Origin: Neoroseomonas rubea
GTDB lineage: Bacteria > Pseudomonadota > Alphaproteobacteria > Acetobacterales > Acetobacteraceae
NCBI RefSeq assembly: GCF_016106015.1
Contig: NZ_JACADQ010000005.1
Location: 1 to 56,584, forward strand
DNA: 56,584 bases
Direction of reading: 5' to 3'
Under the pieces are notes generated by a model, which was not told where the DNA came from, did no database searches, and worked only from the letters and a program-made list of their open reading frames with translations. Of the stretch, positions 19,183-43,311 are shown one piece after another (the first letter of the stretch is position 1; every line of letters starts with the position of its first letter). The position numbers and the translations under genes were made by a program.

Positions 19183-19185
19183 GCC

Positions 19186-21887: not shown

Positions 21888-23844
<1,957 letters not shown>

Positions 23845-23848
<4 letters not shown>

Positions 23849-24771
23849 TTCACGCGCCTCGGGTCGAGCGCGTCGCGCAGGCCGTCGCCGACGAAGTTGA
23901 TGCTGACGACGGTGAGGAAGATCGCGAGCCCCGGGAACAGCGCCCAATGCGGCGCGAAATCGAGGTTGTCCTTGGCATCGAACAGCAGCCGCCCCCAGGT
24001 CGGGATGTCGGGCGGGAAGCCGAGGCCGAGGAAGGACAGCGTGCTTTCCGCGATGATCGCGGCGGCCACGTCGATGGTCGCCGCAACGATGACCGGCCCG
24101 AGCGCGTTGGGCAGGATGTGGCGCATGACAAGGCGCAGGCGCGACGCGCCGAGGGCGCGCGCGGCCTCGACGAACTCCTTCTCCCGCAGCGAGAAGAACT
24201 GCGCGCGCACCAGTCGCGCCACGGGCATCCAATTGAACAGGCCGATGACAGCCACGATGAGGATGAAGACCCCCATCTCCGGCCCCACCACATCCTTCAG
24301 CGAATCGCGGAACAGATAGATGATCAGCAGCAGGAGCGGCAGCTGCGGCAGCGACAGGAACAGGTCGGTCAGCCACATCAGCGCGGCGTCGAGCTTGCCG
24401 CCCGCCATGCCGGCGACCGCACCGACGAAGGTGCCGAGGAAGACGGCGACCAGCATCGCCGTGAAACCGACCGCGAGCGAGATCCGCCCGCCATAGAGGA
24501 TGCGCGCCAGCAGGTCCTGTCCGAGATCGTCCGTCCCCAGTGGATGGTCCCACGAGGGGCCCTGCAGTCGCGCGGTGAAGTCGATCTCGTCGATCGGCAC
24601 GCGCCAGATGAACGGCCCGACCAGCACGGCCAGGATCAGCATCAGGAGCACGGCCGCGCTGACGACCGCGAGCCGGTGCTTGCGGAAGCGGCGCCATGCC
24701 TCCTCCCACGGCCCGATCCGCGGGCGGGCGGGGGCGCTAGCGGTAGCTGATGCGGGGATCGAGCCAGCCAT
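23845..24771 (-). CDS. Peptide-type ABC importer permease (DppC-like)
   Basis: 308 residues from ATG 24771. The N-terminus has the DppC-type cytoplasmic segment WEEAWRRFRKHRLAVVSAAV followed by the first membrane helix, then the periplasmic LGTDDLGQDLLARILYGGR motif that is diagnostic of this permease type. The EAA loop reads EAARALGASRLRLVMRHILPN. The C-terminus, FVGDGLRDALDPR, is the usual ending. Five to six membrane helices are expected. Its start lies 35 bp inside the 3' end of the DppB-like gene and its stop overlaps the DppD-like start, so the whole importer is translationally coupled. Confidence 0.93.
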
Positions 24772-25696
24772 ACAGGATGTCCGCGATCAGGTTGAAGAAG
24801 ATGACAAGGCCGGCGAAGACGAAGGTCACGGCCATGATGACCGGCGTGTCGTTGGCCAGGATGGCGCTGATCAGCAGCGAGCCGATGCCCGGCACGCGGA
24901 AGATCTGCTCCGTCACGATCGCGCCGCCGAACACGGCCGGCATCTGCAGCGCGACCAGCGTGACCACCGGGATCATCGCGTTGCGCACCACGTGGCGCAT
25001 GGTGATGCGCGATTCGGGCAGCCCCTTCGCGCGCGCCGTCGTCACGTGATCAAGACGGATCACGTCCAGGACAGCCGAGCGCACGTAGCGCGTCCAGGCC
25101 GCGCCCTGGAACAGACCCAGCACGAGCACGGGCATGATCGCCTGGCGGATGTGGTCCCACCACCAGCGCCAGCCGGAGGAGGTGATGTTCGTGGAATAGA
25201 CGAAGGGCAGCCAGTCCAGTGTGATCGAGAACAGCAGGATCATCAGCAGCCCGGTGAAGAAGGTGGGCAGCGAGAATCCGACGAAGGCGAGCGTGTTCGC
25301 GATCTGGTCGAAGATCGAATAGGGCCGCGTCGCGGCATAGACGCCGACCGGCAGCGCGATGCACAGCGCCAGCACCTGGGATGCGCCGATCACCGCGACA
25401 GTCGTCGGCAGGCGCTGCATGATGAGCTGATCCACCGGAATACGGCTGACGAAGGAATAGCCCCAGTCGCCCCGCAGCATCGCCAGCAGCCAGCTGACGT
25501 AGCGTTCGTGGATCGGGTCATCGAGCCCGAGGCTCGCGCGCAGCTGCGCGCGGACATCGGGCGGCACGGCAGGGTTCGTCGCCAGCTCCTCGAACGGGTC
25601 GCCCGGAGCCAGGGCGAGCACCGTGAAGAGGATGACGCTGATCCCGAGCAGGCTCGGGATCGCGATCAGCAGCCGTCGGATCAGATACTGGGTCAC
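24737..25696 (-). CDS. Peptide-type ABC importer permease (DppB-like)
   Basis: 319 residues from the GTG at 25696 (VTQYLIRRLLIAIPSLLGIS), the classic start of DppB/OppB permeases. A start at 25750 would add 18 residues overlapping the binding-protein gene. The first helix is ISVILFTVLALAPGDPF. The EAA motif TARAKGLPESRITMRHVVRNAMIPVVT is clear, and the protein ends DILYGWLDPRISYR. It follows the binding-protein gene by 10 bp and overlaps the DppC-like gene by 35 bp. The two permeases form the channel of the importer. Confidence 0.93.
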   Translation of the reverse strand: MTQYLIRRLLIAIPSLLGISVILFTVLALAPGDPFEELATNPAVPPDVRAQLRASLGLDDPIHERYVSWLLAMLRGDWGYSFVSRIPVDQLIMQRLPTTVAVIGASQVLALCIALPVGVYAATRPYSIFDQIANTLAFVGFSLPTFFTGLLMILLFSITLDWLPFVYSTNITSSGWRWWWDHIRQAIMPVLVLGLFQGAAWTRYVRSAVLDVIRLDHVTTARAKGLPESRITMRHVVRNAMIPVVTLVALQMPAVFGGAIVTEQIFRVPGIGSLLISAILANDTPVIMAVTFVFAGLVIFFNLIADILYGWLDPRISYR

Positions 25697-25706
25697 GCGG
25701 GACGGA

Positions 25707-27503
25707 TCAGGTCTCGCGCCACCAGTCGCCGAGCAGCCAGAGCGTGCCATCCCAGGCGCTGAGCACGTGGCGCAGGTTGTTCAGGCTTGCGCTTACCGTC
25801 GGGCGCCGCACCAGCGGAATGATGTGGTTCGAGCCGACCACCAGGTCGTTCAGCTGGATGAACATCGCCGCGCGCTTCACCGGGTCGAGCTCGGACTGCG
25901 CAGCGCGGAAGATGCGGTCGTATTCCTCGCTGCGCCAGCGGACGATGTTGCGGCCCTGCCAGCTGTTCGCCTTGGAAGAGATCTCCCACGACACGTACTG
26001 GTTCATGAACCGCTCGGGGTCAGCCTGCGGCATCGTCGTCGTGTACATCTGCACGTCGGCGTAGAACTTCGTGTAGGTGTCCGGGTTCGCGACATCGGAC
26101 GAGAAGAAGACGGAGGCGACGACCGACTTCAGCTCCAGGTCGATGCCCGCGCGCTGCGCCGCCTGCTTGTAGATCGCCTGGGTGCGCTGGCGCGGCGCGT
26201 TGACGGACGTCTGGTAGACGAAGCGCAGCCGCACCCCGTCCTTGGCACGGATGCCGTCGCGCCCGCGCGCCCAGCCGGCGCGATCGAGGATGTCGTTCGC
26301 CTTCTGGATGCTGAATTCCCAGCGCATGTTCTCCGAGCGGAAGCGCGGCGGGTTGTTGAGGAAGTTCGCCGTCGCCGGGCCGCCGCGGCCGTAGATGAAC
26401 TGCTCCAGCGCGTTGCGGTCGATCAGCAGCGCCATCGCCTCGCGCACCGCCGGGTCGCGGAAGGCCGGGTGCTGGGTGCTGATATGCGCGCGCTCGCCGT
26501 CGATCTCACGATTCGGGTCGGTCGCGTTGAGCTGCACGAACTCGATGCCGCCACCCTCGACGATGTTCACCTTGCCGCGGCCGGCGGCTTCCAGGCGCTT
26601 GAGGATCTCGTCCTCCACCTGCATGTTCCAGGCATAGTCGAAATCGCCGGTCTGCAGCACCGCGCGCGCGGCCGAGACTGCGTCGCCGCCGCCCTTGATC
26701 TCGAGCGTGTCGAAGAACGGGCGGTTGTCCATGTGGTAGTTCTGGTTCAGCTCCCCGCGCAGCAGGTCGCCCGGTGCGAAGGAGACGAAGCGGTAGGGGC
26801 CGGTTCCGACCGGGCGCAGGTTCGCCGGCGCGTCGCGCGAATTGGCGCCGGCGAAGCCCTGAAACATGTGCTTCGGGATCATCTGGCCAGTCGCGGCGAC
26901 GAAGGCATCCGCCCAGAAGGGCGTCGGCTGGGCGAACTCCACGCGCACCGTATGGTCGTCGACCTTCACGACGTTCACGTCGCGATAGGAGCCGGAGGTG
27001 ACGGCCGCGACGGCGGCGCTGCGCGCATATTCCCAGTTGAACACCACGTCGTCGGCCGAGAAGTCCTGCCCGTCGTGCCACTTCACGCCGCGCTTGAGCT
27101 TCCAGGTGACCGACCGCCCATCCTGCGCCAGGCCGCCATTCTCGAGCGACGGGATCTCGGCTGCCAGGATCGGGTGCAGCGTGCCGTCCGAAGCCCAGCC
27201 GGCAAGCGGTTCATAGAAGACGCGCGCGGCGTCCTGGTTCGTCGTGCCGGCCGCGAAGTGCGGGTTCAGCAGCGTCGCGGCCTGCCAGTAGAGGATCTTG
27301 AGCGCCCCGCCGCCACCCCGCCGCATCGGGCGATAGGCAGGCACGGATTGCGCCGCGGCGGGCGCGGCGCCCGTGATGGCCAGCAGCTGCGTCGCCATGG
27401 GCGCGGTCAGGCCCAGCGCCGCCATGCGCCGGACGAAGCCGCGCCGCGTCAACGTGCCGCGCTTCACGCGCCCGATCATCTCGCGCAGATGGTCTTCCGT
27501 CAT
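25707..27503 (-). CDS. Peptide-type ABC importer periplasmic binding protein (SBP family 5)
   Basis: 598 residues from ATG 27503. The N-terminus carries a twin-arginine type signal (RGTLTRRGFVRRMAALGL, then an apolar stretch ending AAAQS), so it is probably exported folded by Tat. The mature part has the family-5 landmarks: LKILYWQAATLLNPHFA, EPLAGWASDGTLHPILAAEIP, WKLKRGVKWHDGQDFSADDVVFNWEY and ALLIDRNALEQFIYG. It is longer than most DppA proteins (about 500-540). It binds the solute, a peptide or other amine-bearing compound, for the four genes downstream. The 150 bp ahead of it, after the deaminase gene, hold no promoter I can support, so transcription may come from the 32-kb region. Confidence 0.92.
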   Translation of the reverse strand: MTEDHLREMIGRVKRGTLTRRGFVRRMAALGLTAPMATQLLAITGAAPAAAQSVPAYRPMRRGGGGALKILYWQAATLLNPHFAAGTTNQDAARVFYEPLAGWASDGTLHPILAAEIPSLENGGLAQDGRSVTWKLKRGVKWHDGQDFSADDVVFNWEYARSAAVAAVTSGSYRDVNVVKVDDHTVRVEFAQPTPFWADAFVAATGQMIPKHMFQGFAGANSRDAPANLRPVGTGPYRFVSFAPGDLLRGELNQNYHMDNRPFFDTLEIKGGGDAVSAARAVLQTGDFDYAWNMQVEDEILKRLEAAGRGKVNIVEGGGIEFVQLNATDPNREIDGERAHISTQHPAFRDPAVREAMALLIDRNALEQFIYGRGGPATANFLNNPPRFRSENMRWEFSIQKANDILDRAGWARGRDGIRAKDGVRLRFVYQTSVNAPRQRTQAIYKQAAQRAGIDLELKSVVASVFFSSDVANPDTYTKFYADVQMYTTTMPQADPERFMNQYVSWEISSKANSWQGRNIVRWRSEEYDRIFRAAQSELDPVKRAAMFIQLNDLVVGSNHIIPLVRRPTVSASLNNLRHVLSAWDGTLWLLGDWWRET

Positions 27504-27653: not shown

Positions 27654-28148
27654 TCATGCCGCGCCGTCCGTCCAGTAGCCCTGGTGCGGCACCGCCGCTT
27701 CCGCCTCCAGGCAGGGGCCCACCACGGCGACCGGCTCGGCCGCCGTGTCCAGCACCGCGCGGCAGGAGAGCGATAGCCCTGCCGTATGCGCCTGCGCGTT
27801 GCGCAGATCCAGGATCGCGCCGGCGGAAAGCCCGTAGACCACGCGCCCGACGCCCGCGTAGAAGGCCGCCGCGGCGCACATCGCGCAGGGCTCACCCGAG
27901 GAATACATGGTCCCCGCGCGCATCCTCGCGCGTGGCGTGCCCGCGGCCAGCGCGGCAGACAGCGCGTTCATCTCGGAATGCGCGAGCGTGCCGGCGCCGG
28001 ACGCGCCCTGCATCGACCCTGCTTCCGCGATGACGACACCATCCGCATCGGCGATGACGCAGGCGAAAGGGCGGTCGCCGCGCGCCCGCGCTTCCCCCGC
28101 CAGGGTGATCGCCCGCCGCAGCAGGCGCGTGTCGGTCTCGTTCAGCAT
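27654..28148 (-). CDS. Zinc-dependent nucleobase/nucleoside deaminase
   Basis: 164 residues from ATG 28148 (MLNETDTRLLRRAITLAGEA), which has GAGAGG nine bases upstream; ATG 28157 is an alternative. Zinc motifs of the cytidine-deaminase fold are present: LAHSEMNAL, with His and catalytic Glu but Ser instead of the usual Ala, and SSGEPCAMCAAAAFYAG (PCxxC). Length and motif order resemble guanine deaminase and other small nucleobase deaminases more than cytidine deaminase. It lies 13 bp behind the double permease of a polyamine-type importer, so it probably deaminates what that system brings in and releases ammonia. The true substrate is unknown. Confidence 0.85.
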   Translation of the reverse strand: MLNETDTRLLRRAITLAGEARARGDRPFACVIADADGVVIAEAGSMQGASGAGTLAHSEMNALSAALAAGTPRARMRAGTMYSSGEPCAMCAAAAFYAGVGRVVYGLSAGAILDLRNAQAHTAGLSLSCRAVLDTAAEPVAVVGPCLEAEAAVPHQGYWTDGAA

Positions 28149-28161
28149 GGACGACATCCTC

Positions 28162-29865
28162 TCACCGGCGCCAGACGCGGTCGAGCGGGACAAGACGGTG
28201 CATCGCCAGCAGCAGCAGCACCGTCACGAGGATGAAGACGGTGGAGATGGCATTCACGGTGTTCTCCAGGCTGAAGGCCGCTTCCGCATAGATGCGCACC
28301 GGCAGCGTCTGAAGCCGCGCGGTGGTCAGGAAGGCCGTTACCGTCACCTCCCCGAAGGAAATCAGGAAGCCGATCAGGCAGGCAACGGCGATGCCGGGTG
28401 CGAGCTGCGGCAGCACGACGCGCTGGAAGACGCGCAAGGGCGGCGCGCCGAGGCCAGACGCCGCTTCCTCCAGCCCGCGGTCTAGGCCGGCGACGGAGGC
28501 GCGCAACATCGCCAGCATGAAGGGCGCGACCAGCACGACGTGTACGGCGAGGATGCCGAGGAAGGCCGGCAGCAGCGTGAACCATTGCAGCAGCCGCAGC
28601 ATGCCAAGCCCGATCGCAATGCCCGGGAGCGCCAGCGGCAGCATGAAGAAGGCGGCGAGCGCCTCCCGCCCCGGGAATGTCCCGCGCGCCAGGGCGAGCG
28701 CCGCAGGCAGGGCGATCAGCAGCGACACGCCGGTCGCGGCAAGCGCAAGCTGCAGGCTGACCCAGGCATCTCCGAGATAGCGCTCATTGCCCAGCACCGC
28801 CGCGTACCAGCGCCAGGTGAAGCCGAGCCACTGCGCCACCGTCGCCTGCGGGCTGTCGTTGAAGGAGGAAACTGCGACAAGGACCAGCGGGAACAGCAGC
28901 AGCAGCAGCGCGATGCCAAGCAGCAGGCGCGACACGAGCGGCCCGATCGCCTCCAGCGCCACGACCAGTCCCCGCCGTAGCGCCGGCGGCAGGGCGGGCA
29001 GGCGGCGGGGTGCGCGGCCCACGGTCCAGGGCGTCGCGAGCAGGATCGCGCGGCCGATCAGCAGCGTGCCGAGCACGGAGGCCCCCAGCATCACCATCGC
29101 CAGCGCCGAGGCGGCCGGATAGTTCAGGATCTCGAGCCCTTCCTTCAGCACCACCATACCGCTGACCATCACCTGCCGCCCGCCGACCAGCGTCGCCGAC
29201 ACATAGGCGGTCGAGGCGAGCAGGAAGACCAGCACCAGCCCCGCCCGCAGCCCCTGGAGCGAGAGCGGCAGGGTGACGCGGAAGAAGGTGACGGCCGGCC
29301 CGGCCCCCAGGCCCGCGGCGGCCTCCGCCAACCGCTTCTCCTGCGCCTCCAGCACGTCATAGAGTGCGAGCACCATGTAGGGCAGGAAGACCTGCGTCAG
29401 CGCGAGGCCGACAGCGAACCAGCCGAACAGCAGGTTCACCCGCGGCAGGCCCAGGAAGGCCAGCAGGTTCGAGACGAGCCCGCCCGGCGCCAGCAGCAAG
29501 ATGATGCCGAGGCTGCGCACGACCACGTTGGTCAGCAGCGGCACGAGCACGCAGGCGAAGCCCAGCGGCCGCCAGCGCGGCGGCAGGCGCGTCAGCCACA
29601 GCGCGATCGGATAGCCGAGGATCGCGCTTGCCAGCGTGACACTTGCGCCAAGCGCGAGGGTGCGCAGGATGGTGCGTCGGCTGAACGGGTCCGTCGCGAG
29701 GTCCGTGTACTGGACGCCGGACGGGATGAAGGACAGCGGCGCGAAGATTTCCGGACTTTCCTGGACGGACAGCAGGGCGACCACGCCAAGCGGCGCGGCG
29801 AAGGCCGCGAGCATCCAGAGCAGGTACGGCGTCGCGAGCAGCGGCGCCGCGGCGCGCGAATTCAC
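28162..29865 (-). CDS. Fused double permease of a polyamine-type ABC importer (PotB-PotC fusion)
   Basis: 567 residues. The GTG at 29865 overlaps the binding-protein stop as GTGA; the frame continues open upstream but only as an antisense or overlap shadow. Residues ~1-270 form a PotB-like permease (GVVALLSVQES start, EAA loop EAAAGLGAGPAVTFFRVTLPLSLQG). Residues ~310-567 form a PotC-like permease (SSFNDSPQATVAQWLGFTWRWY, EAA loop EEAASGLGAPPLRVFQRVVLPQLAPG). The two are joined by a charged linker, GRAPRRLPALPPALRRG. Most polyamine or iron importers of this class have two separate genes, though fused forms are known. A single polypeptide supplies both halves of the channel here. Confidence 0.9.
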   Translation of the reverse strand: MNSRAAAPLLATPYLLWMLAAFAAPLGVVALLSVQESPEIFAPLSFIPSGVQYTDLATDPFSRRTILRTLALGASVTLASAILGYPIALWLTRLPPRWRPLGFACVLVPLLTNVVVRSLGIILLLAPGGLVSNLLAFLGLPRVNLLFGWFAVGLALTQVFLPYMVLALYDVLEAQEKRLAEAAAGLGAGPAVTFFRVTLPLSLQGLRAGLVLVFLLASTAYVSATLVGGRQVMVSGMVVLKEGLEILNYPAASALAMVMLGASVLGTLLIGRAILLATPWTVGRAPRRLPALPPALRRGLVVALEAIGPLVSRLLLGIALLLLLFPLVLVAVSSFNDSPQATVAQWLGFTWRWYAAVLGNERYLGDAWVSLQLALAATGVSLLIALPAALALARGTFPGREALAAFFMLPLALPGIAIGLGMLRLLQWFTLLPAFLGILAVHVVLVAPFMLAMLRASVAGLDRGLEEAASGLGAPPLRVFQRVVLPQLAPGIAVACLIGFLISFGEVTVTAFLTTARLQTLPVRIYAEAAFSLENTVNAISTVFILVTVLLLLAMHRLVPLDRVWRR

Positions 29866-30899
29866 CCGGCGATCTCGCGCGTGAAGCGGCTCGACCAGCG
29901 GGGCTGGTTGCGGATCACCACGTCCCAGTCGAAATCCACCAGCCGCCCGACCGCTTCCTCCCCCATGATCAGCTTGGCGCGGAGGTCGGCCGGCAGATCG
30001 AGGTTGCGGATGGTCGGGCTGTAGTAGATGCGCTCGGCATAGGCGCGCTGGCATTCCGGGGAAAGGTGCAGGTTCACCCAGGCCTCGGCAAGTGCCTGCT
30101 TCTGCGTGCCGACGGTGATGCAGGCGACGTTGGTTGCCAGCGCCTGGCCCTCCGTGGGGTCGGCGATGACGATGTTCGGGTTGCGCGCTTCCGCATAGGC
30201 GCGGGTAAAGGATCCAAACTCGACGCTCGCCGCGCCGACCTGCTGGTCGAACATGGTGAACAACTGGTCCTGGCTGCCCTGGATGGCGGCGAAGGGCTTC
30301 AGCGCCGCGATCTGGCGGAAAGCGGGCTCGATGTCGTTCTCGCTGCCGCCCCAAATCTTCGCCGCCATCAGCAGCGCCGAGGTGCCCTGCGCGCCGGGAT
30401 AGGTCGGCCAGATCACCTTGCCGCGGAGGTCGGCGCGCCAGAAATCCTTCCACGACGTCATCGGCGCATCGACCTTGCGCCGGTCATAGACGATCGTGAC
30501 CGGATTGAAGGCGACGCCATAGCCGCCGAGCTTCGCGGCCGGATAGAGGTTCGCCGCATTCGGCACGCGGTCCGTCGGCGCCTGCGTGACGCCGTCGCGC
30601 ACCGCCTGGCGGCTTTCGAAGATGTTCAGGTAGACGATATCGAAGGACGGGCGGCCGCGTTCGGCATATGCGCGCGCGCGGCGTTCCGGCGTGCCGCCGA
30701 GCACGAAGTTGATCTTCACCCCATGCTGCTGCTCGAGCGGTGTCGCGACAAACTCCCGCAGGATGCGTTCCTGCGCGCCGCCCCAGACGCCGACGGTCAG
30801 TTCCTGGCCGCGCTGGATCTGCGCGACGGGGCTGCGCATGAAGGCGAAGGGCGCGGCGGCGCCGGCGCCGAGGATCAGGCGGCGGGTCAGGCAGGTCAT
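29862..30899 (-). CDS. Extracellular solute-binding protein (SBP family 1, PotD-like)
   Basis: 345 residues from ATG 30899 (MTCLTRRLILGAGAAAPFAF), overlapping the upstream ATPase stop as ATGA. The N-terminus with TRR followed by an apolar stretch fits a Tat or Sec signal. The mature protein has the polyamine/iron-binding type core: ELTVGVWGGAQERILREFV, RPSFDIVYLNIFES, GYGVAFNPVTIVYDRRKV, SWKDFWRADLRGKVIWPT and YAERIYYSPTIRNLDLP. Together with the ATPase before it and the fused permease after it, it makes a complete importer. A polyamine or related N-containing solute is the natural guess, given the deaminase at the end of the operon, but ligand specificity cannot be read directly. Confidence 0.9.
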   Translation of the reverse strand: MTCLTRRLILGAGAAAPFAFMRSPVAQIQRGQELTVGVWGGAQERILREFVATPLEQQHGVKINFVLGGTPERRARAYAERGRPSFDIVYLNIFESRQAVRDGVTQAPTDRVPNAANLYPAAKLGGYGVAFNPVTIVYDRRKVDAPMTSWKDFWRADLRGKVIWPTYPGAQGTSALLMAAKIWGGSENDIEPAFRQIAALKPFAAIQGSQDQLFTMFDQQVGAASVEFGSFTRAYAEARNPNIVIADPTEGQALATNVACITVGTQKQALAEAWVNLHLSPECQRAYAERIYYSPTIRNLDLPADLRAKLIMGEEAVGRLVDFDWDVVIRNQPRWSSRFTREIAG

Positions 30900-31954
30900 G
30901 CGGGCTCTCCCGTGGGGTCCTCGAGGAAGGTCAGCGCGTCCGCGCCGGCCGAAAGCGTCACCGGCGCGCGGGGCGGCAAAGCGGGCTCGGTCGTCGGGCG
31001 CAGCACGCGGATGCGCGGCCCGCTGTCGAGTTCGACCTCATAGGCGACCTCGTCGCCCAGCCAGGCAGCCTCGGCGACGCGGCCAGGCGCGGCGAGCAGC
31101 GCGCCAGCCCGCGGCACGAGCCGCAGCCGTGCGGCCCGCAGGACAAGATGGGAGGGCTGCCGCGGCGCACCCGCGGGCGGCGCCACGCCGAGACCGGGCG
31201 CCAGCATGAACATGCCGCCTTCGAGCCGCCCCGGCAGCACGGTGCGCGCGCCGAGGAAGCTCGCGGTGAAGACGCGACGCGGATGCTCCGTCAGTTCCGC
31301 CGGTGTCGCGCATTCCACCAGGTGCCCGTGGTTGAGAACTGCGATCCGGTCGGCCAGCGCCAGCGCCTCCTCCTGGTCATGCGTCACGAACAGGGTCGTG
31401 ATGCCGGTGCGCCGGCGCAACGCGGCGATCTCCTGCCGCATCTCCACGCGCAGGCCGGCATCGAGGTTCGACAGGGGCTCATCCAGCAGCAGCAGCGACG
31501 GGTGGATGACGAGGGCGCGGGCGAGTGCCACGCGCTGCTGCTGGCCGCCCGACAATTGCGCGGGGTAGCGCGCGGCGAAGGCGGCAAGCCCCACCATGGA
31601 CAGCGCCTCGGTCACGCGGGCGTCGCGCTCGGCGCGCGGCAGGCCGCGCATCTCGAGCCCGAAGCCGACATTCCCCGCGACGGTCATGTGCGGGAACAGG
31701 GCGTAGTTCTGGAACACCATGCCGATGCCGCGCCGGTGCGGCGGCGTGCGCTCGATGGCGCGGCCTTCCATCACGATGCGTCCGCCATCGGGCGTCACGA
31801 AGCCGGCCACCATGCGCAGCGTCGTCGTCTTGCCGCACCCGGACGGGCCGAGCAGCGCAATGCATTCGCCGGCCTCGGCCGCGAGCGTAAGCCCATCGAC
31901 CACGGCCTGCGCGCCGTACCGCTTGGTGACCTGGTCCAGCAGGAGATGCGCCAC
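30896..31954 (-). CDS. ABC importer ATPase (PotA/spermidine-putrescine type)
   Basis: 352 residues from GTG 31954 (VAHLLLDQVTKRYGAQAV); longer in-frame starts reach into the divergent promoter region and are rejected. Walker A LLGPSGCGKTTTLR, Q-loop MVFQNYALFPHMTV, signature [15 protein letters not shown] and Walker B LLLLDEPLSNLDAG are present, followed by a TOBE-type regulatory domain (about 240-350). It is the first gene of the minus-strand run that continues through the binding protein, double permease, deaminase and perhaps the peptide importer down to 21.9 kb. A sigma-54-type promoter on the minus strand begins 32 bp upstream. Confidence 0.93.
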   Translation of the reverse strand: MAHLLLDQVTKRYGAQAVVDGLTLAAEAGECIALLGPSGCGKTTTLRMVAGFVTPDGGRIVMEGRAIERTPPHRRGIGMVFQNYALFPHMTVAGNVGFGLEMRGLPRAERDARVTEALSMVGLAAFAARYPAQLSGGQQQRVALARALVIHPSLLLLDEPLSNLDAGLRVEMRQEIAALRRRTGITTLFVTHDQEEALALADRIAVLNHGHLVECATPAELTEHPRRVFTASFLGARTVLPGRLEGGMFMLAPGLGVAPPAGAPRQPSHLVLRAARLRLVPRAGALLAAPGRVAEAAWLGDEVAYEVELDSGPRIRVLRPTTEPALPPRAPVTLSAGADALTFLEDPTGEPA

Positions 31955-31985
31955 GATGTCCCGACACGATGCCCGGCGTCGAGGG

Positions 31986-32001
31986 TCCAAGAAGCGTGCC
32001 A
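31986..32001 (-). promoter_or_regulatory. Candidate sigma-54 promoter of the polyamine-type importer operon
   Basis: Minus-strand sequence TGGCACGCTTCTTGGA. It matches 11 of 12 constrained positions of TGGCACR-N4-TTGCW with correct spacing, but the one mismatch hits the -12 C, which is usually conserved, so activity may be weak. The start site would be near 31975, about 20 bases ahead of the GTG at 31954. It faces away from a second candidate at 32130-32145. Confidence 0.45.
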
Positions 32002-32070
32002 GGGCGGGAGCGGGTGCACCTCCTTCTGCGCGGCGAGGCGCCTGCGACTTGGGCAGGCATTCACGGCGGG

Positions 32071-32091
32071 GCTGCACAACCCGTGTGCAGC
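32071..32091. promoter_or_regulatory. NtrC-type enhancer dyad
   Basis: Perfect 8-bp inverted repeat GCTGCACA / TGTGCAGC with five bases between. Its core TGCAC-N7-GTGCA (32073-32089) has the 17-bp length and outer bases of NtrC sites (TGCACCA-N3-TGGTGCA). It lies about 60 bp from the plus-strand promoter candidate and about 80 bp from the minus-strand one, a good place for an enhancer-binding protein serving both. Another dimeric regulator is possible. Confidence 0.5.
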
Positions 32092-32129
32092 ACCCATCTG
32101 TCCCGGCGGCGGTATGGCGCCGCAGGGCG

Positions 32130-32145
32130 TGGCATGTCGCTTGCT
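32130..32145 (+). promoter_or_regulatory. Candidate sigma-54 promoter of the 32-38 kb catabolic operon
   Basis: TGGCATGTCGCTTGCT matches 11 of 12 constrained positions of the sigma-54 consensus, including the GG and GC at N10 spacing and a full TTGC. The start site would be near 32155, 26 bases ahead of the ATG at 32181, leaving just room for its GGAGGAAG ribosome site. This is one of the two best matches in the window. Confidence 0.6.
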
Positions 32146-32180
32146 GCCCACGGCGTCGTCGAAGACGGGCGGAGGAAGCC

Positions 32181-33200
32181 ATGCGCACCAGATACAGGAT
32201 CGAGCGGCGCGCGCTGATCGGCGGCGGCGTCGGCTACGCATTGGCCGCGGTCGCCGGCGCGCGCGTGCCCTTCGCGCAATCGCTCGACCGGGTCTCCTTC
32301 CAGACGAACTGGCGCGCCCAGGCCGAGCATGGCGGCTACTACCAGGCGGTGGCCGCCGGCATCTATCGCCGCTACGGCATCGAATGCGACCTGCGCATGG
32401 GCGGGCCGCAGCAGAACCCGGCGCAGCTGCTGCTTGCCGGCCGCGTCGACATGACCATGTCGAATGGCTTCCAGGCGCTGAACTTCGTGCGGGAGAACGT
32501 GCCCTTCCTGACCATCGCGGCGATCTTCCAGAAGGATCCGCAGATCCTGATGAGCCACGAGGAAGCGAACATCACCGGCTTCGAGCAGATGCGCGGCCGG
32601 CCGATCCTGATCGGCGCCGGCGGGCGCGTAACCTACTGGCCCTTCCTGCGCGCGCGCTTCGGCCTGACGGACGACCAGATCCGTCCCTACACCTTCAACA
32701 TCCAGCCCTTCCTGGCCGACAAGGGTGCGATCCAGCAGGGCTTCCTCTCATCCGAGCCTTTCTCGGCCATGGCGGGCGGCGCGCGGCCGCGCGTGCACCT
32801 CATCGCCGACGCCGGCTTTCCGAACTACCAGACCACCATCGACATCTCCCGCCGCATGACCGAGGAGAAGACCGACCTGGTGCAGCGCTTCGTCGACGCC
32901 ACCATGGAAGGCTGGACGCAGTACATGCGCAGCCAGGACGTTGAGGCAGCGAACCGCCTCATCATGCGCGACAACCCCGACATGACGCTGGAGCGCATCA
33001 CCTACGCCGTGCGGGTTATGAACGAGCGCGGCATCGTCCTGTCCGGCGATGCGGAGCGCCTGGGCATCGGCGCCATGACGGATGAGCGCTGGGAGACCTT
33101 CTACACCACCATGCGCGACGCGGGTGCGATGCCTCCGGGCCTCGACATCAAGCGCGCCTATACGCTGCGATTCGTGAACAAGCGGGTCGGGCTGGGGTGA
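32181..33200 (+). CDS. NMT1/THI5-type ABC solute-binding protein
   Basis: 339 residues from ATG 32181, set by GGAGGAAG 3-10 bases upstream; the frame is open much further upstream but crosses the divergent gene. The N-terminus (MRTRYRIERRALIGGGVGYA, then AAVAGARVPFAQS) looks like a twin-arginine signal. The mature part begins DRVSFQTNWRAQAEHGGYYQ and has GADM-like and EPFSAMAGG segments typical of the NMT1/THI5-like family, which binds pyrimidine-type compounds, thiamine precursors, nitrate or sulfonates. It overlaps the next ATPase by 4 bp (GTGA). In this operon, with a cytosine-deaminase-like enzyme and a RutB-like amidase, a nucleobase or ring-N ligand is the best guess. Confidence 0.9.
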   Translation: MRTRYRIERRALIGGGVGYALAAVAGARVPFAQSLDRVSFQTNWRAQAEHGGYYQAVAAGIYRRYGIECDLRMGGPQQNPAQLLLAGRVDMTMSNGFQALNFVRENVPFLTIAAIFQKDPQILMSHEEANITGFEQMRGRPILIGAGGRVTYWPFLRARFGLTDDQIRPYTFNIQPFLADKGAIQQGFLSSEPFSAMAGGARPRVHLIADAGFPNYQTTIDISRRMTEEKTDLVQRFVDATMEGWTQYMRSQDVEAANRLIMRDNPDMTLERITYAVRVMNERGIVLSGDAERLGIGAMTDERWETFYTTMRDAGAMPPGLDIKRAYTLRFVNKRVGLG

Positions 33201-33979
33201 CGCCGACGCGGCCGCTCGTCGCGCTGCGCGGGGTCGCGAAGCGCTACGCCACGGGGACGCTGGCGCTGACCGGCATCGACCTCGACATATTGCCGGGCGA
33301 CTTCGTGGCGCTGCTGGGGCCTTCCGGCTGCGGCAAGTCGACGCTGCTGCGCATCCTCGCGGGCCTGTCCGGTCCGACCGGGGGGACGATCGACTGGCCG
33401 GGCGCGACGCATGATGCCGCGGGCGACCCGCAGCGCGACATCGGCTTCGTCTTCCAGGAGCCGACCCTGATGCCCTGGGCGACGGTCATGCGCAACGTGA
33501 CGCTGCCGCTCGAACTCGCCGGGGTGAAGCGCAGCGAGGCGGAGGACCGCGCGGCCGAATGGCTCGCCCGCGTCGAGCTGAAGGGCTTTGAGCGCGCCTA
33601 TCCCCGCGCGCTCTCGGGCGGGATGCGGATGCGCGTGTCCATCGCCCGTGCGCTGGTGACGCGCCCGCGCCTTCTGCTGATGGACGAGCCCTTCGCGGCG
33701 CTGGACGAGATCACGCGCTTCCGCCTCAACAACGACCTGCTGCAATTGTGGGAGGCCGAGCGCTTCACCGTGGTGTTCGTGACCCATTCCGTCTTCGAGA
33801 GCGTCTTCCTCGCCCAGCGCATCGTCGTCATGGCCCCGCGCCCGGGCCGCATCGCCGAGGAGATCGCGGTGGAGGCGCCGACGCCGCGTGGCGAGGAGTT
33901 CCGGACATCCCCTGACTATGCCGCGCAATGCCGCACCGTCTCGCACGCCCTGTCGCGCGCCATGGCGCCCGCGGCATGA
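33197..33979 (+). CDS. ABC importer ATPase (SsuB/TauB/NrtD-like)
   Basis: 260 residues from GTG 33197, overlapping the binding-protein stop. Walker A LLGPSGCGKSTLLRILAG, Q-loop VFQEPTLMPWATVMRNV, signature LSGGMRMRVSIARALV (GGM-R-M-R instead of the usual GGQ-R-Q-R, common in this branch) and Walker B LLLMDEPFAALDEI are visible. The HEAVFLAQR-type region reads VTHSVFESVFLAQRIVVM. This group powers importers for nitrate, sulfonates, taurine and pyrimidine-like solutes. Its stop overlaps the permease start as ATGA. Confidence 0.93.
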   Translation: MTPTRPLVALRGVAKRYATGTLALTGIDLDILPGDFVALLGPSGCGKSTLLRILAGLSGPTGGTIDWPGATHDAAGDPQRDIGFVFQEPTLMPWATVMRNVTLPLELAGVKRSEAEDRAAEWLARVELKGFERAYPRALSGGMRMRVSIARALVTRPRLLLMDEPFAALDEITRFRLNNDLLQLWEAERFTVVFVTHSVFESVFLAQRIVVMAPRPGRIAEEIAVEAPTPRGEEFRTSPDYAAQCRTVSHALSRAMAPAA

Positions 33980-34803
33980 GCGAGGAACCGACCCCGGAAC
34001 GCGCCCTGCCTGGCGCGGCCGCCTGGATGCGCGTGGTGGCGCCGACCGTCATCGCCTTCCTCTTCCTCGGCGCCTGGGAGGCGGTGGTGCGCGTCAACGG
34101 CATCCCGCACTACATCCTCCCCGGGCCGCTGCTGGTCGGGCAGACGCTGCTGAAGGACTGGGGCACGCTGTCCACCTCGCTGCTGATCACCCTCAAGATC
34201 ACGTTCATGGCGCTGTCGGTCGCCGCCGTGCTGGGCCTCGCGCTGGCGGTGCTGTTCGCGCAGTCGCGCATCATTGAGATGTCGCTGTTTCCCTTCGCTG
34301 TCATCCTGCAGGTGACGCCGATCGTCGCCATCGCGCCGCTGATCATCATCTGGGTGAATGACGTCACGCTCTCCCTGCTGATCTGCGCCTGGATCGTCGC
34401 CTTCTTCCCGATCCTGTCGAACACCACGGTTGGGCTGAATTCGGCCGACCACAACCTGATCGACCTGTTCCGGCTTTATCGCGCGAACCGCTGGCAGGTG
34501 CTCGTGCGGCTGCTGCTGCCTTCAGCGCTGCCCTATTTCCTCGCGGGGCTGCGCATCTCGGGCGGGCTCGCGCTGATCGGGGCAATCGTCGCGGAATTCG
34601 TGGCGGGAACGGGCGGCAGCGCGTCCGGATTGGCCTATCGCATCCTGGAAGCGGGCTACCAGTTGCAGATCCCGCGCATGTTCGCGGCGCTGGTGCTGGT
34701 CAGCGGCACGGGGATCGCCATCTTCCTCGCGCTGACGCTGCTCTCGCACCTGCTGCTGCGGAAATGGCATGAGAGCGCCATGGGGCGGGGGGATCGGCGA
34801 TGA
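33976..34803 (+). CDS. ABC importer permease (SsuC/TauC-like)
   Basis: 275 residues from ATG 33976 (MSEEPTPERALPGAAAW), overlapping the ATPase stop as ATGA; an earlier ATG at 33928 is inside the ATPase gene. Six membrane helices can be drawn, starting with VVAPTVIAFLFLGAWEAVV. The coupling loop is LFRLYRANRWQVLVRLLLPSALPYFLAGLRIS, and the family motif ALIGAIVAEFVAGTGG follows. It works as a homodimer in this class. The stop overlaps the amidohydrolase start, which ties transport to the first catabolic step. Confidence 0.92.
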   Translation: MSEEPTPERALPGAAAWMRVVAPTVIAFLFLGAWEAVVRVNGIPHYILPGPLLVGQTLLKDWGTLSTSLLITLKITFMALSVAAVLGLALAVLFAQSRIIEMSLFPFAVILQVTPIVAIAPLIIIWVNDVTLSLLICAWIVAFFPILSNTTVGLNSADHNLIDLFRLYRANRWQVLVRLLLPSALPYFLAGLRISGGLALIGAIVAEFVAGTGGSASGLAYRILEAGYQLQIPRMFAALVLVSGTGIAIFLALTLLSHLLLRKWHESAMGRGDRR

Positions 34804-36149
34804 GCATTGCGATGGATCGGCTGCGGGCGGCGCTGGATGGCGCGGGGACGTCCTTTTGGCTGCGGGACGCTCGCGCTTCCGCCGAGTTGCTGGAGGGTGC
34901 TCCGGCCTTGCCGACGGATGGCGAAGGGCTTGCGCGCATCGACCTGCGCATTGAGGCCGGTCGTATCGCCGCCATCGCACCTGCCGGCAGCGCCCCCGAA
35001 GGGCCCTCGCTGGATGGCGGCCAGCTCTGGCCGGGCCTGGTCGATGGCCACACGCACATCGACAAAGGCCACATCTGGCAGCGCATGCCGAACCCGGACG
35101 GCACCTTCGGCGGCGCGATCGGCGCGGTGATGGCCGATCGTGGCGCCAACTGGTCCATCGACGACATGCGCGCGCGCGCCGACTTCGCTCTGCGGGCCGC
35201 CCATGCGCACGGCACGGTCGCGCTGCGCACGCATCTCGACAGCTACATGCCGCATGCGCCGAATGCCTGGGCGATGTTCCGCGCGCTGCGGGAGAAGTGG
35301 GCGGGGCGGATCGCACTGCAGGCTTCGTCCATCGCGCCGCTTGACCGCTTCGCGGGGGACGAAGGCGCGGCACTCGCCGACATCGTCGCCGATTCGGGCG
35401 GCGTGCTCGGCATGGTCACGCGCCTGTCGGGCGGCATCCATGACGAGCTGCCCGCGGACTTCCAGCCCATGCTGGACCGCTTCTTCGCGCTGGCCGAGGA
35501 GCGCGGCCTCGCCCTCGATCTCCATGTGGACGAAAGCGGGGAGACGGGGGCGCGCGCACTGCGCGAAATCGCGGCAACCGCGCTCCGCCGCGGCTTCTCC
35601 CGCCCCATCCAGTGCGGGCATTGCTGCGCGCTTTCGCTCCAGCCGGATGAGTTCGCCGAGGAGACGATCCGTCTCTGCGCGGAGGCGGGCATCGCCATCA
35701 TCGTCCTGCCCATGTGCAACATGTACCTGCAGGACCGCGTGCCGGGCCGCACCCCCCGCTGGCGCGGCGTGACGCTGGTGCATGAGATGCGGGCGGCGGG
35801 CATTCCCGTCTCCGTCGCCAGCGACAATACGCGGGATCCCTTCTACGCTTATGGCGACCTCGACATGCTCGAGGTGTTCCGCGCCGCGACGCGCATCCTG
35901 CATCTCGACCATCCCTTCGGGGATTGGCCGCGCGCCGCGGCTGCAACGCCGGCCGCCGCGATGGGGCTGCCGGAGCACGGCATCATCCGTCCGGGCGCCG
36001 CTGCCGACCTCATTCTGTTCCGCGCGCGCTTCATGACGGAGCTGCTCTCCCGCCCCCAGGCGGATCGCATCGTGCTGCGCGCGGGCCGCGTCCTGGCGGC
36101 GGAACTGCCGGACTGGCGGGAGCTCGACCCCGTCCTCACCAGCGGCTGA
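34800..36149 (+). CDS. Amidohydrolase, cytosine deaminase-like
   Basis: 449 residues from ATG 34800 (ATGA overlap with the permease). Metal-dependent hydrolase landmarks in order: PGLVDGHTHIDKGHIW (first metal His pair), TVALRTHLDSYM, LDLHVDESGETGARAL (His and Glu as in CodA), QCGHCCALS, and VSVASDNTRDPFYAYGDLDML with the Asp that ends the metal site. This order and the D-N-T-R-D-P-F motif are typical of cytosine deaminase and related ring deaminases (isoguanine, creatinine). It would release ammonia from the ring compound imported by the three genes before it. The 3' end overlaps the convergent reductase gene by 14 bp. Confidence 0.88.
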   Translation: MSIAMDRLRAALDGAGTSFWLRDARASAELLEGAPALPTDGEGLARIDLRIEAGRIAAIAPAGSAPEGPSLDGGQLWPGLVDGHTHIDKGHIWQRMPNPDGTFGGAIGAVMADRGANWSIDDMRARADFALRAAHAHGTVALRTHLDSYMPHAPNAWAMFRALREKWAGRIALQASSIAPLDRFAGDEGAALADIVADSGGVLGMVTRLSGGIHDELPADFQPMLDRFFALAEERGLALDLHVDESGETGARALREIAATALRRGFSRPIQCGHCCALSLQPDEFAEETIRLCAEAGIAIIVLPMCNMYLQDRVPGRTPRWRGVTLVHEMRAAGIPVSVASDNTRDPFYAYGDLDMLEVFRAATRILHLDHPFGDWPRAAAATPAAAMGLPEHGIIRPGAAADLILFRARFMTELLSRPQADRIVLRAGRVLAAELPDWRELDPVLTSG

Positions 36150-36717
36150 AATGCAGGCGCACCTTCGCGAGGAAGGCGTCGAGTTCCGCCGGCTCGCGCC
36201 GGTCCATCCCGTTCAGGTACAGCCAGTCGAGCCGGCAGCCCTTCGCGCAGAGCCGGCGGATACCGCGGCCGATCAGCTTCCTGTCCGGCCAGCCGATGTA
36301 CCAGAGCAGCCAGGTCGGCGAGCCATAGGTCGTGACGACGGCGATGCGCGTGATGTTGGTCAGCAGCGGCTCGATCGCGCCTTCCCCCAGCCTGAACGCG
36401 ACGCCAGGCGACCAGACGCGGTCGAACCAGCCCTTCAGGATCGCCGGCAGCCCGTACCACCAAGTGGGGTAGACGAGGACCAGCGCCTCGGCCTCGCGCA
36501 GGTCCGCAACGTGGGATTCGATCCCTTCCTCGTTCGCGCCTTCCGTGTGGTAGCGCGCCCGTTCCTCCGCGCCCAGCACAGGATCGAAGCCTTCGGCATG
36601 GAGGTCGCGAACCGTGACGGCGTGCCCGGTGCCTTCCAGCGCGGCACGCGCGGCGTCGCGCAGCGCGGCGGAGAAGCTGTCGCTCCGCGGATGGGCATGG
36701 ATCATCAGGATTCGCAT
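36136..36717 (-). CDS. NAD(P)H-dependent flavodoxin-fold oxidoreductase (copy 1)
   Basis: 193 residues from ATG 36717 (MRILMIHAHPRSDSFSAAL); ATG 36720 directly before it overlaps the GGAGGGG ribosome site. Flavin-binding landmarks of the NQO/KefF/YheR family: IHAHPRSDSFSAAL (phosphate loop), AEALVLVYPTWWYGLPAILK and GWFDRVWSPGVAFRL. It is clearly related to the reductase at 37933-38517: both have LHAEGFDPVL/LYAEGFDPVL and AEERxxYH. It is divergent from the RutB-like gene (26 bp apart) and convergent with the amidohydrolase. A role in supplying reduced flavin, or in reducing a quinone or ring intermediate, is inferred. Confidence 0.88.
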   Translation of the reverse strand: MRILMIHAHPRSDSFSAALRDAARAALEGTGHAVTVRDLHAEGFDPVLGAEERARYHTEGANEEGIESHVADLREAEALVLVYPTWWYGLPAILKGWFDRVWSPGVAFRLGEGAIEPLLTNITRIAVVTTYGSPTWLLWYIGWPDRKLIGRGIRRLCAKGCRLDWLYLNGMDRREPAELDAFLAKVRLHFSRW

Positions 36718-36743
36718 CATCCCCTCCGCTGGAGCATCTTCGC

Positions 36744-37505
36744 ATGATCCCGATCGGGCCATCGCCGCGCAACACCTGGCGCGTGTCGGCCGAGGCGGCG
36801 GAGCTGACGCGGCCGGCTGTAGCGCCGCGGCCCGTCACCGTCGCGGCTCGGCCGAAGCGCGTGACCTTCGACCTCGCGCGCAGCGCGATCCTCGTCATCG
36901 ACATGCAGAACGACTTCTGCCACCGCGACGGTTGGCTGGCGTCGATCGGCGTGGATGTGGAACCCGCCCGCGCGCCCATCGCGCCGCTCGCCGTGCTGCT
37001 GCCGACGCTGCGCGCGGCCTCCGTCCCGGTCGTCTGGGTGAACTGGGGCAGCCGCCCGGACCGGCTGAACCTCTCGCCGGCGCTGCTGCATGTCTACAAC
37101 GGGTCTGGCGCAGGCACCGGGTTGGGGGATCCGCTGCCGGCCACCGGCAGTCCCGTGTTGCAGGCCGGCGCGTGGTCCGCGCAGGTGGTGGATGAACTCA
37201 CGCCCGACCCGCGCGACATCCGCGTCGACAAGCACCGCATGTCGGGCTTCTGGGACACGCCGCTGGACAGCATCCTGCGCAACCTGCGCGTCGAGACGCT
37301 GCTGCTCGCGGGCGTCAACCTCGACCAGTGCGTGCTGCACACCCTGGCGGACGCCAACTTCGCGGGCTTCGACACACTGCTGGTCGAGGATTGCGCGGCC
37401 ACGACCAATCCGCGCTTCTGCCACGACGCCACCATCCTCAACATCCACCAGATCTTCGGCTTCACCCTGGCATCCACCGACCTGATGGAGGCGATGAGCC
37501 CATGA
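36744..37505 (+). CDS. Isochorismatase-family amidase, RutB-like
   Basis: 253 residues from ATG 36744 (GGAG upstream). Triad: Asp in ILVIDMQNDFCHRDGWL, Lys in IRVDKHRMSGFWDTPLDSIL and Cys in LLAGVNLDQCVLHTLADANF. The segments GFWDTPLDSILRNL and FGFTLAS, plus the long N-terminal arm, resemble RutB, which hydrolyses ureidoacrylate-type products of pyrimidine ring opening to give ammonia and CO2. It is more RutB-like than the isochorismatase beside rutA at 3.7 kb. Its stop overlaps the cupin start by 4 bp (ATGA). The short 26-bp gap to the divergent reductase leaves little room for a promoter, so it may rely on read-through from the 32-kb operon. Confidence 0.85.
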   Translation: MIPIGPSPRNTWRVSAEAAELTRPAVAPRPVTVAARPKRVTFDLARSAILVIDMQNDFCHRDGWLASIGVDVEPARAPIAPLAVLLPTLRAASVPVVWVNWGSRPDRLNLSPALLHVYNGSGAGTGLGDPLPATGSPVLQAGAWSAQVVDELTPDPRDIRVDKHRMSGFWDTPLDSILRNLRVETLLLAGVNLDQCVLHTLADANFAGFDTLLVEDCAATTNPRFCHDATILNIHQIFGFTLASTDLMEAMSP

Positions 37506-37933
37506 TGAGCGCACCCGTCATCGGCAAGCGCGCGGCCGACCTGCGCGGCTTCCGCATCGCGCCTGGCGACAGCAATTACTTCGCCTGTCTGCTCGATCCC
37601 CTCGCGGACGGCGTCTCCTTCACCCTCGTCGTCGAGATCTTCGAGCCGGGCGGCAAGACGCCGCCCAACACCCACACGGCCGCGGAGGAATGCTTCTTCG
37701 TCCTGGCTGGAAGCGGCATTGCCATGGCAGACGGCCAGACCATGCCGATCGGGCCCGGCGACTGCTTCGTGCTGCGCCCCGGCGTCGAGCATGTGGTGGA
37801 GAACACCGGCGCGACGAAGCTCTACTGCCTTACGCTCATGACGCCGAACGAGGGCTTCGCCGAGTTGATCCGCAACGGCACGGCGGTCGACCTCGCGCCT
37901 GAGGACATCGCCGTGCTGACGGGCCGCGCCTGA
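37502..37933 (+). CDS. Cupin-domain protein
   Basis: 143 residues from ATG 37502 (ATGA overlap with the amidase). A single cupin barrel is visible: motif 1 region GGKTPPNTHTAAEECFFVLAGSG, with one His and two Glu positions as metal ligands, and motif 2 IGPGDCFVLRPGVEHVVENTG with its His. Small cupins of this sort are either ligand-binding or metal-dependent ring or ureido enzymes (for example ureidoglycolate lyase-like). It is wedged between a RutB-like amidase and a flavodoxin-fold reductase with 4-bp and 1-bp overlaps, so it takes part in the same pathway. No specific reaction can be assigned. Confidence 0.88.
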   Translation: MMSAPVIGKRAADLRGFRIAPGDSNYFACLLDPLADGVSFTLVVEIFEPGGKTPPNTHTAAEECFFVLAGSGIAMADGQTMPIGPGDCFVLRPGVEHVVENTGATKLYCLTLMTPNEGFAELIRNGTAVDLAPEDIAVLTGRA

Positions 37934-38517
37934 TGCGTGTGCTCGTGCTCTTTGCCCATCCGCTGGCCGATTCCTTTCACGCTGCGCTGCACGCGGCGGC
38001 GCTCGGAGGGCTGGCGCGGGCGGGGCACGAAATCGACGATTGCGACCTCTATGCCGAAGGCTTCGACCCAGTGCTCTCCGCGGAGGAGCGCCGGAACTAC
38101 CACGACCCCGCGCTGAACAGCCGCCTCGTCGCGCCCTGGGTGGAACGGGTGCAGAAGGCCGAGGCGATCGTCTGCGTCTTCCCGACCTGGTGCTTCGGCC
38201 CGCCGGCGATCCTCAAGGGCTTCTTTGACCGGGTGTTCCTGCCCGGCGTCTCCTTCCGGCTGGAGAATGGCGTAGCGAAGCCGGCGCTGACCAACATCCG
38301 CCGCATCGCCGGCATCGTCACCTATGGCCGCCCCTGGTGGACCGCGCTGCTGATGGGCGACCCGCCGCGCATGGCGGTCACCCGCTACCTGCGCGTGCTG
38401 ACGGGCTGGAAGGCCAAGGCCGAGTACCTCGCGCTGTACGACATGAACCGCGCGACTCAGGCGCGGCGCGAAGCCTTCGTCGCGCGAGTCCGCGACCGCA
38501 TGGCGCGCTTCGGCTGA
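37933..38517 (+). CDS. NAD(P)H-dependent flavodoxin-fold oxidoreductase (copy 2)
   Basis: 194 residues from ATG 37933, overlapping the cupin stop (TGATG). It has the same family landmarks as the gene at 36136-36717: LFAHPLADSFHAAL, IVCVFPTWCFGPPAILK, GFFDRVFLPGVSFRL. The paralogues sit on opposite strands on either side of the amidase/cupin pair, so this is an older duplication with rearrangement. The GRPWWTALLMGDPPRMAV stretch differs from copy 1 and may mean a different acceptor. It ends the plus-strand operon, convergent with the FAD oxidase gene 4 bp away. Confidence 0.88.
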   Translation: MRVLVLFAHPLADSFHAALHAAALGGLARAGHEIDDCDLYAEGFDPVLSAEERRNYHDPALNSRLVAPWVERVQKAEAIVCVFPTWCFGPPAILKGFFDRVFLPGVSFRLENGVAKPALTNIRRIAGIVTYGRPWWTALLMGDPPRMAVTRYLRVLTGWKAKAEYLALYDMNRATQARREAFVARVRDRMARFG

Positions 38518-42094: not shown

Positions 42095-42097
42095 GCG

Positions 42098-43120: not shown

Positions 43121-43127
43121 GGCGTGT

Positions 43128-43157
43128 CTCCGGCATATGTCCGGAGCGTCCCGGACA
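43128..43157. promoter_or_regulatory. Overlapping inverted repeats upstream of the 43.1-kb binding-protein gene
   Basis: CTCCGG (43128-43133) pairs with CCGGAG (43141-43146), and TGTCCGG (43138-43144) pairs with CCGGACA (43151-43157). They sit between the start codon at 43120 and the minus-strand promoter candidate, in the transcribed leader. They could be an operator or an RNA stem that affects translation. Short GC-rich stems are common by chance here, so this is tentative. Confidence 0.3.
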
Positions 43158-43172
43158 GGTTGCGCGCGGGCC

Positions 43173-43188
43173 TGCAAGCGGCGGACCA
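43173..43188 (-). promoter_or_regulatory. Candidate sigma-54 promoter of the binding protein / creatininase / oxidase operon
   Basis: Minus-strand TGGTCCGCCGCTTGCA: 10 of 12 constrained positions of the sigma-54 consensus with the GG-N10-GC spacing and a complete TTGC. The start site would be near 43163, about 43 bases ahead of ATG 43120. It is back to back with the candidate at 43296-43311. A 17-bp TGCC-N9-GGCA dyad (43251-43267) lies between the two, but it is too weak to call an NtrC site. Confidence 0.45.
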
Positions 43189-43295
43189 GCCGGGGACCCG
43201 CCGGCCGGCCGTGCCGCTGCCCGCTTTCTGTGCGGAGAATGATCGAGGCCTGCCGCAGCGGAAGGCAGTCCGACCACGAACGCCCGGCGGCGGCT

Positions 43296-43311
43296 CGGCC
43301 CACGATTTGCT
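43296..43311 (+). promoter_or_regulatory. Candidate sigma-54 promoter of the Rieske oxygenase gene
   Basis: CGGCCCACGATTTGCT: 10 of 12 constrained positions, correct spacing, complete TTGC. The start site near 43321 would exclude the in-frame ATG at 43319 and leave a 19-base leader holding GGAG in front of ATG 43340. That internal agreement supports both the promoter and the start choice. Confidence 0.45.

Follow-up and report, generated by a model that had tools for sequence, protein, structure and literature searches.

Two TGC-N11-GCA sites between facing sigma-54-like promoters form a candidate NtrC-type enhancer in Neoroseomonas rubea

A perfect inverted repeat lies between two divergently oriented genes of Neoroseomonas rubea: an ABC ATPase gene running leftward from position 31954 and a gene for an NMT1/THI5-like binding protein running rightward from position 32181. 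Positions refer to the window, the whole stretch of 56,584 nucleotides that was analyzed (70% GC, from a 5.0-Mb genome). The nearest named relatives of the rightward binding protein are found in Neoroseomonas nitratireducens (96%), Roseomonas rosulenta (91%), and other Acetobacteraceae. Which protein would bind such a repeat, and would it act on one of the two genes or on both? We consider it quite probable, from the sequence comparisons described below, that two NtrC-type sites, of which the dyad is the stronger, together constitute one enhancer for two divergent sigma-54 promoters.

The dyad, a second site, and two facing promoter elements

An inverted-repeat scan of the window sequence located the dyad GCTGCACA-N5-TGTGCAGC at 32071-32091 (GCTGCACAACCCGTGTGCAGC), with perfect 8-bp arms and a 5-bp spacer. 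The TGCAC-N7-GTGCA pattern named in the initial annotation is exact, and occupies 32073-32089 within it; we refer to this 17-bp core, TGCACAACCCGTGTGCA, as site B. As a bare string, the dyad is within chance expectation, and it is the setting that carries the weight. The window contains 67 perfect inverted repeats with 8-bp arms and spacers of 0 to 12 bp, five of them with a spacer of 5 bp, and TGCAC-N7-GTGCA with at most one mismatch is matched twice, against 2.52 matches expected.

Exact TGCAC-N7-GTGCA occurs at six places in the genome, compared with none for the reversed control. The other five look coding when their translations are judged by eye, and include frames that we take to be gatA-, pntA-, and GDP-mannose-dehydratase-like; open frames cross the dyad in the window too, so an open frame alone is little proof of coding. 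None of these five places has a GG-type sigma-54 element scoring at least 10 within 25 to 140 bp, and one has an element scoring 9. The longer pattern TGCACA-N5-TGTGCA has a single place in the genome, that in the window, and is present in 2 of 35 genus genomes, each time at the orthologous place (the window and the genome of a sister species, G028). We therefore rejected it as a regulon marker, and conclude that the regulon motif does not include the inner arms.

The two facing sigma-54 candidates proposed for this region do exist, and each matches 11 of 12 consensus positions. The rightward -24/-12 element, TGGCATGTCGCTTGCT, is at 32130-32145 on the plus strand, with a predicted start at 32156 and a leader of 25 nt. 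The leftward sigma-54-like element, TGGCACGCTTCTTGGA, is at 31986-32001 on the minus strand, with a predicted start at 31975 and a leader of 21 nt; its -24 half is exact, and its -12 half reads TTGGA where the consensus, TGGCAC-N5-TTGCW, has TTGC. The third and last element in the window to reach 11/12 lies upstream of urtA. To judge the variant -12 sequence, we can compare the promoters of glnK-amtB, a P-II gene followed by an ammonium-transporter gene (Ammonium_transp in 8/8), in eight genus genomes: all eight carry a TTGG-type element, so the clade seems to accept TTGG at -12. The other P-II gene (L126-L133) has an element scoring at least 10, a weak one, in one of eight upstream regions.

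Besides the dyad, the intergenic region holds a second TGC-N11-GCA site, site A (TGCGACTTGGGCAGGCA, 32043-32059), 30 bp from site B; the core is exact at both. The window has 26 such sites, and the sole pair separated by 29 to 32 bp is sites A and B. If offsets are counted between a site's 5' end and the T of TGG in the -24 element, site A is 58 from the leftward element and 87 from the other, and site B is 57 from the rightward element and 88 from the leftward, so that each promoter sees a nearly identical pair (57/87 from the right, 58/88 from the left). Counted from the predicted starts, the site centers are at about -75 and -105 for the rightward promoter and about -76 and -106 for the leftward. 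The dyad had been placed 60 to 80 bp from both elements, which is inexact: 38 bp separate it from the rightward element and 69 bp from the leftward, and its center is 75 and 106 bp from the predicted starts. The dyad is off-center between the promoters, and the candidate enhancer unit is the two sites.

The sites resemble characterized NtrC sites in part. Enteric NtrC sites are given as TGCACCA-N3-TGGTGCA in excerpts of two papers (PMC8743547, PMC4987338), the E. coli NtrC box as TGCACCAnnnTGGTGCA (PMC8743547), and a related form as TGCACC(A/T)4TGGTGCA, with enhancer distances of 80 to 150 bp (PMC4987338). Like these, the dyad has a 17-bp core with TGC and GCA ends upstream of a sigma-54 promoter, and it matches 11 of 14 positions of the consensus quoted in PMC8743547. 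It differs from them in its inner bases, the middle being CCC rather than A/T, and site A matches 7 of 14 positions. The core is identical to TGC-N11-GCA, the NtrC motif described for Sinorhizobium nfeR1 (PMC10746234). At nfeR1, however, NtrC is described as a repressor and there is no sigma-54 signature, whereas the window has two sites between two sigma-54 elements (PMC10746234).

Conservation of the site cores and their spacing

In three related loci (L037, L038, and L010), the two elements and the two site cores are all present at conserved spacing, with altered sequence in between; the offsets are 56/86 for the rightward element and 57-58/87-88 for the leftward. The dyad itself is missing from L038 and L010, although their promoters remain, and the part of the sites that they retain is the TGC-N11-GCA cores, with site B of L010 matching at 5/6 positions. 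When the four intergenic regions are aligned, conserved blocks stand out from altered sequence at the site cores and at the leftward element, which is retained in all three relatives. The rightward elements are partly aligned because the spacers downstream of them are of unequal length; each of these elements was found directly. Retention of the promoters with loss of the dyad, which the initial annotation had named as evidence against its own reading, is what we see for the perfect dyad (2/35 genus genomes) and not for the TGC-N11-GCA core. The conserved features are the TGC/GCA cores and their spacing, not the perfect dyad.

We extended the comparison to orthologues of the first gene on the right. 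Of 81 upstream regions, each of up to 320 bp, 56 have a GG-N10-GC element with a score of at least 9 (L094 was omitted from this set); the window contains 38 such elements on its two strands, from which our own arithmetic gives about one region in ten by chance. The 25 regions scoring below 9 were omitted from the offset counts. Across 38 promoter clusters, a TGC/GCA core matching at least 5/6 occurs at offsets of 56-58 in 14, 76-78 in 12, and 86-88 in 9. Shuffled clusters gave a mean of about 1.2 per band and maxima of 5 to 6 in 1,000 shuffles (1.2, with a maximum of 6, for the 56-58 band). These bands, which are spaced by 10 or 20 bp and hence by whole helical turns, were picked after viewing the data, and the related genomes in such counts are not independent of one another. 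A band-free statistic, the top count at any offset, was reached in 1 of 1,000 shuffles when all 38 clusters were used, and in 0 of 1,000 for the 29 clusters that remain when betaproteobacteria are removed; the betaproteobacterial orthologues show no consistent site at offsets of the 56-58, 76-78, or 86-88 type.

These results bear on two simpler explanations of the dyad. A chance inverted repeat, as the string counts in the window would allow, is hardly credible, given that the position of the core is kept together with both promoters in four genomes and that cores are enriched at the same offset in other clusters. Slightly less remote, and still very unlikely, is an operator for an ordinary repressor or a sigma-70 activator that merely overlaps the sigma-54 region. 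Arms of 8 bp around a 5-bp spacer would fit many dimeric regulators, and the exact inner arms are kept in the sister genome only. Against an operator stand the fixed distance of the TGC/GCA core from the sigma-54 elements while the arms change, the absence of TGCACA-N5-TGTGCA from the rest of the genome, and the lack of any sigma-70 promoter-like site in 31900-32250; nor was a DNA-binding regulator recognized among the window proteins searched, which are part of all frames.

The divergent arrangement itself recurs. In many Falsiroseomonas-like genomes also, the leftward ATPase, binding-protein, and permease genes point away from the rightward genes, and one site set between two facing sigma-54 promoters is seen in several genomes. 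Among 15 divergent loci with a rightward promoter (L069 and L085, which have no rightward element scoring at least 9, were left out), the distance from element to element is 127-129 or 137-139 bp in 13, two classes that differ by one helical turn. In 12 of these 13 the leftward element scores 9 or 10 of 10; in L083 it scores 7, tied with another place. In shuffled sequences, 3.7% of top matches fell at these distances, and 0.03% fell there with a score of at least 9; both the classes of distance and the relaxed consensus used for the leftward element were chosen after looking at the loci. No convincing leftward element was found in L064 or L066. In L013-L030 the leftward element never scores above 8, and those of them whose surroundings were compared have no divergent left genes. 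Six loci (L058, L060, L062, L065, L072, and L083) have a 5/6 core midway between the promoters, at an offset of 76-77 for the rightward element and 76-78 for the leftward.

A tentative and somewhat doubtful extension of the two-site enhancer is that it is geometrically tuned to act both ways. A single NtrC oligomer, bound at equal distances from the two facing sigma-54 promoters, might serve both. Selection might hold these promoters a whole number of helical turns apart (127-129 or 137-139 bp) and keep the sites on one face of the helix, whether there are two of them (58/88 and 57/87) or one in the center (about 77/77); the two importers would then be expressed in a balanced or a mutually exclusive way.

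Other site-plus-promoter units and the candidate activators

The window contains a second example of the same arrangement. Urea ABC transporter genes are found at 47455-53024, with UrtA (551 bits) and UrtE (329.5 bits) both over cut-off. Upstream of urtA, whose ATG is at 47655, there is a sigma-54-like element (TGGCACGCGGTTCGCT, 47553-47568, plus strand) with TGC-N11-GCA sites at offsets of 56 and 98, the nearer being TGCCGCGCCGGCGGGCA at 47497-47513. We regard urtA as probably a second NtrC target in the window.

A search of 120 family genomes for a site and a rightward-type promoter separated by 36 to 44 bp gave 43 matches in 35 genomes, compared with 2 for the reversed control; the gap range of this pattern, and of the TTGG-type pattern described below, was set from the geometry in the window. 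Thirty of the 43 matches were examined downstream, the other 13, including the window's own, having no locus. The downstream ORFs of the first 20 were compared with NCBIfam and those of the last 10 with Pfam, and L150, L154, L159, and L165 were also compared with Pfam. Clear nitrogen genes follow 6 of the 30 units: UrtA in four cases (one of these ORFs is cut by the end of the locus and scores below cut-off), a UrtB-type ORF in one, and cyanase (cynS) in one. Another 13 of the 30 precede transporter, amidase, or DUF1989 genes, in raw counts with no matched gene-content control. These comprise NMT1-type binding proteins (four), dipeptide-type ATPases (three), polyamine/phosphonate-type ATPases (two), and one each of DUF1989, amidase, SBP_bac_5 (in the N. 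rubea genome), and TctC; the five ATPases score below the cut-offs of their best families, and a role of all 13 in nitrogen metabolism is conjectural. The remaining 11 precede unrelated or no recognized families, and are probably chance matches. The unit in the N. rubea genome, L169 (G000:C126:6317-6389), lies upstream of the SBP_bac_5 transporter gene.

The TTGG-type pattern gave 11 matches across the family, one of them the window's own, and none in the control; several are probably chance matches in coding sequence. One match, L187, has on the promoter's side an ORF that is AmtB-like when judged by eye. In the glnK-amtB promoters, the TGC/GCA core is at 86-88 in 8/8.

Which activator would use these sites? 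The genome encodes one RpoN and has four strong matches to sigma-54 activators; four further matches to the activator family, at 21 to 28 bits just above the cut-off of 20.2, are probably other AAA+ proteins. NtrC scores 691 bits against a cut-off of 558.6 and carries GAFTGA. Caulobacter NtrC is described in an excerpt of one paper as lacking GAFTGA (PMC10274813); the N. rubea protein is unlike it in this respect, which leaves the sigma-54 route open. NtrX (L121), which is without GAFTGA, was rejected as the activator. Two response regulators, L119 (LuxO-like) and L120 (AtoC-like), have GAFT-bearing AAA+ domains with GAFTGA or GAFTDA, that of L120 being GAFTDA, and neither reaches the curated cut-off of any named family listed. 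Either might occupy the sites as a different sigma-54 activator, in which case the operons would answer another signal. We think this unlikely, since the same unit stands upstream of urtA and cynS, and the same class of site at other offsets upstream of glnK-amtB, all of them classic nitrogen genes, and since NtrC is over cut-off in all 18 of 18 related genomes chosen.

The urt, cynS, and transporter units, the conserved geometry, and the presence of an NtrC with GAFTGA together with a single RpoN make NtrC control likely. That NtrC is the protein concerned, that each promoter is active, and that the two draw on a single enhancer are inferences. The idea of an NtrC-type enhancer common to the two promoters is supported by comparison (the match to the consensus, the kept spacing, the units at urtA, urt, and cynS, and the site class at glnK-amtB), but not in its original form of a single site, as two exist.

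Predicted outputs of the two promoters

Binding, looping, and coactivation by NtrC are proposed here by analogy with the established NtrC/sigma-54 mechanism. Under nitrogen limitation, phosphorylated NtrC would occupy both 17-bp sites, which are 30 bp or about three helical turns apart. The bound protein would form its ATPase ring and, by looping, reach RNA polymerase-sigma-54 at either promoter; the rightward output would be an NMT1-type importer and a cytosine deaminase, and the leftward output a second importer with another deaminase.

Two systems offer precedents. In E. coli, the divergent sgrR and sgrST-setA are both reported to depend on NtrC and RpoN (PMC8743547); the window is alike in having divergent genes, with NtrC/RpoN control predicted here, and the gene identities differ. 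The orp operons of Desulfovibrio vulgaris have facing sigma-54 promoters, one activator, and palindromic sites between them (PMC3897727), and the window likewise has two facing candidate sigma-54 promoters with palindromic sites in between. The orp system differs in that its activator is DVU2106, not NtrC, that IHF is needed, and that the sites are at -131 and -88 from the starts (PMC3897727). The locus suggests that Acetobacteraceae probably have an NtrC/sigma-54 regulon; none was named among the paper titles listed in a limited literature search on Roseomonas, NtrC, and sigma54. It would also connect nitrogen starvation with an importer that is accompanied by a cytosine deaminase. With two promoters at near-equal distances from one proposed enhancer, the region offers a natural test of whether one activator oligomer serves both sigma-54 promoters or must choose between them.

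The rightward run extends over about 4 kb (32181-36149). It begins with the NMT1/THI5-like binding protein (32181-33200, plus strand, Pfam NMT1), followed at 33197-36149 on the same strand by an ABC ATPase, a permease, and a cytosine deaminase, which were assigned from profile matches and synteny in relatives; the deaminase matches the PRK07583 equivalog at 598.5 bits against a cut-off of 403. A Flavodoxin_2 gene on the minus strand (36136-36762) converges on the deaminase gene, and a minus-strand relative of it is found within 400 nt past the deaminase gene in 40 of 52 loci (with the deaminase on the plus strand). A 198-amino-acid ORF on the plus strand (36151-36747) was rejected as an operon gene, being the shadow of the Flavodoxin_2 gene. 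As the minus-strand gene intervenes, the isochorismatase, cupin, and flavodoxin-like genes at 36744-38517 probably form a separate unit. The description of the rightward genes as a 6-kb ring-degradation operon was wrong: the run consists of binding protein, ATPase, permease, and cytosine deaminase, and is stopped by the minus-strand gene. The proposed enhancer does not rest on the longer run and is unaffected by its shortening.

On the left, the first gene encodes an ABC ATPase with a TOBE domain and a GTG start (30896-31954, minus strand), the divergent partner kept in many relatives. It is followed at 27654-30899 on the minus strand by genes for a binding protein, a permease, and a cytidine/deoxycytidylate-deaminase-type protein. 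The 10-kb run of import and deamination genes assigned to this side holds for the importer and deaminase, which cover 4.3 kb (27654-31954); what follows, to about 10 kb, is a dipeptide-type ABC cluster (21888-27503, minus strand) of SBP_bac_5, a permease, and two ATPase-bearing ORFs, whose cotranscription from the leftward promoter is putative. One ORF in this cluster, of 616 amino acids (22859-24709), has an ATPase domain from about residue 313 and may be a permease-ATPase fusion.

Several other features were seen in passing. Two adjacent genes at 17197-20952 combine TPR repeats with Glyco_transf_41 (O-GlcNAc-transferase-like) domains. At 41279-43564, a creatininase-family gene lies beside another NMT1-type binding protein, perhaps as a further nitrogen-scavenging set. 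Four MAG contigs titled Asaia bogorensis (L041, L047, L054, and L063) encode a binding protein 76 to 79% identical to that of the window; their promoter regions cluster with those of Roseomonas-titled MAGs, and the species labels look doubtful.
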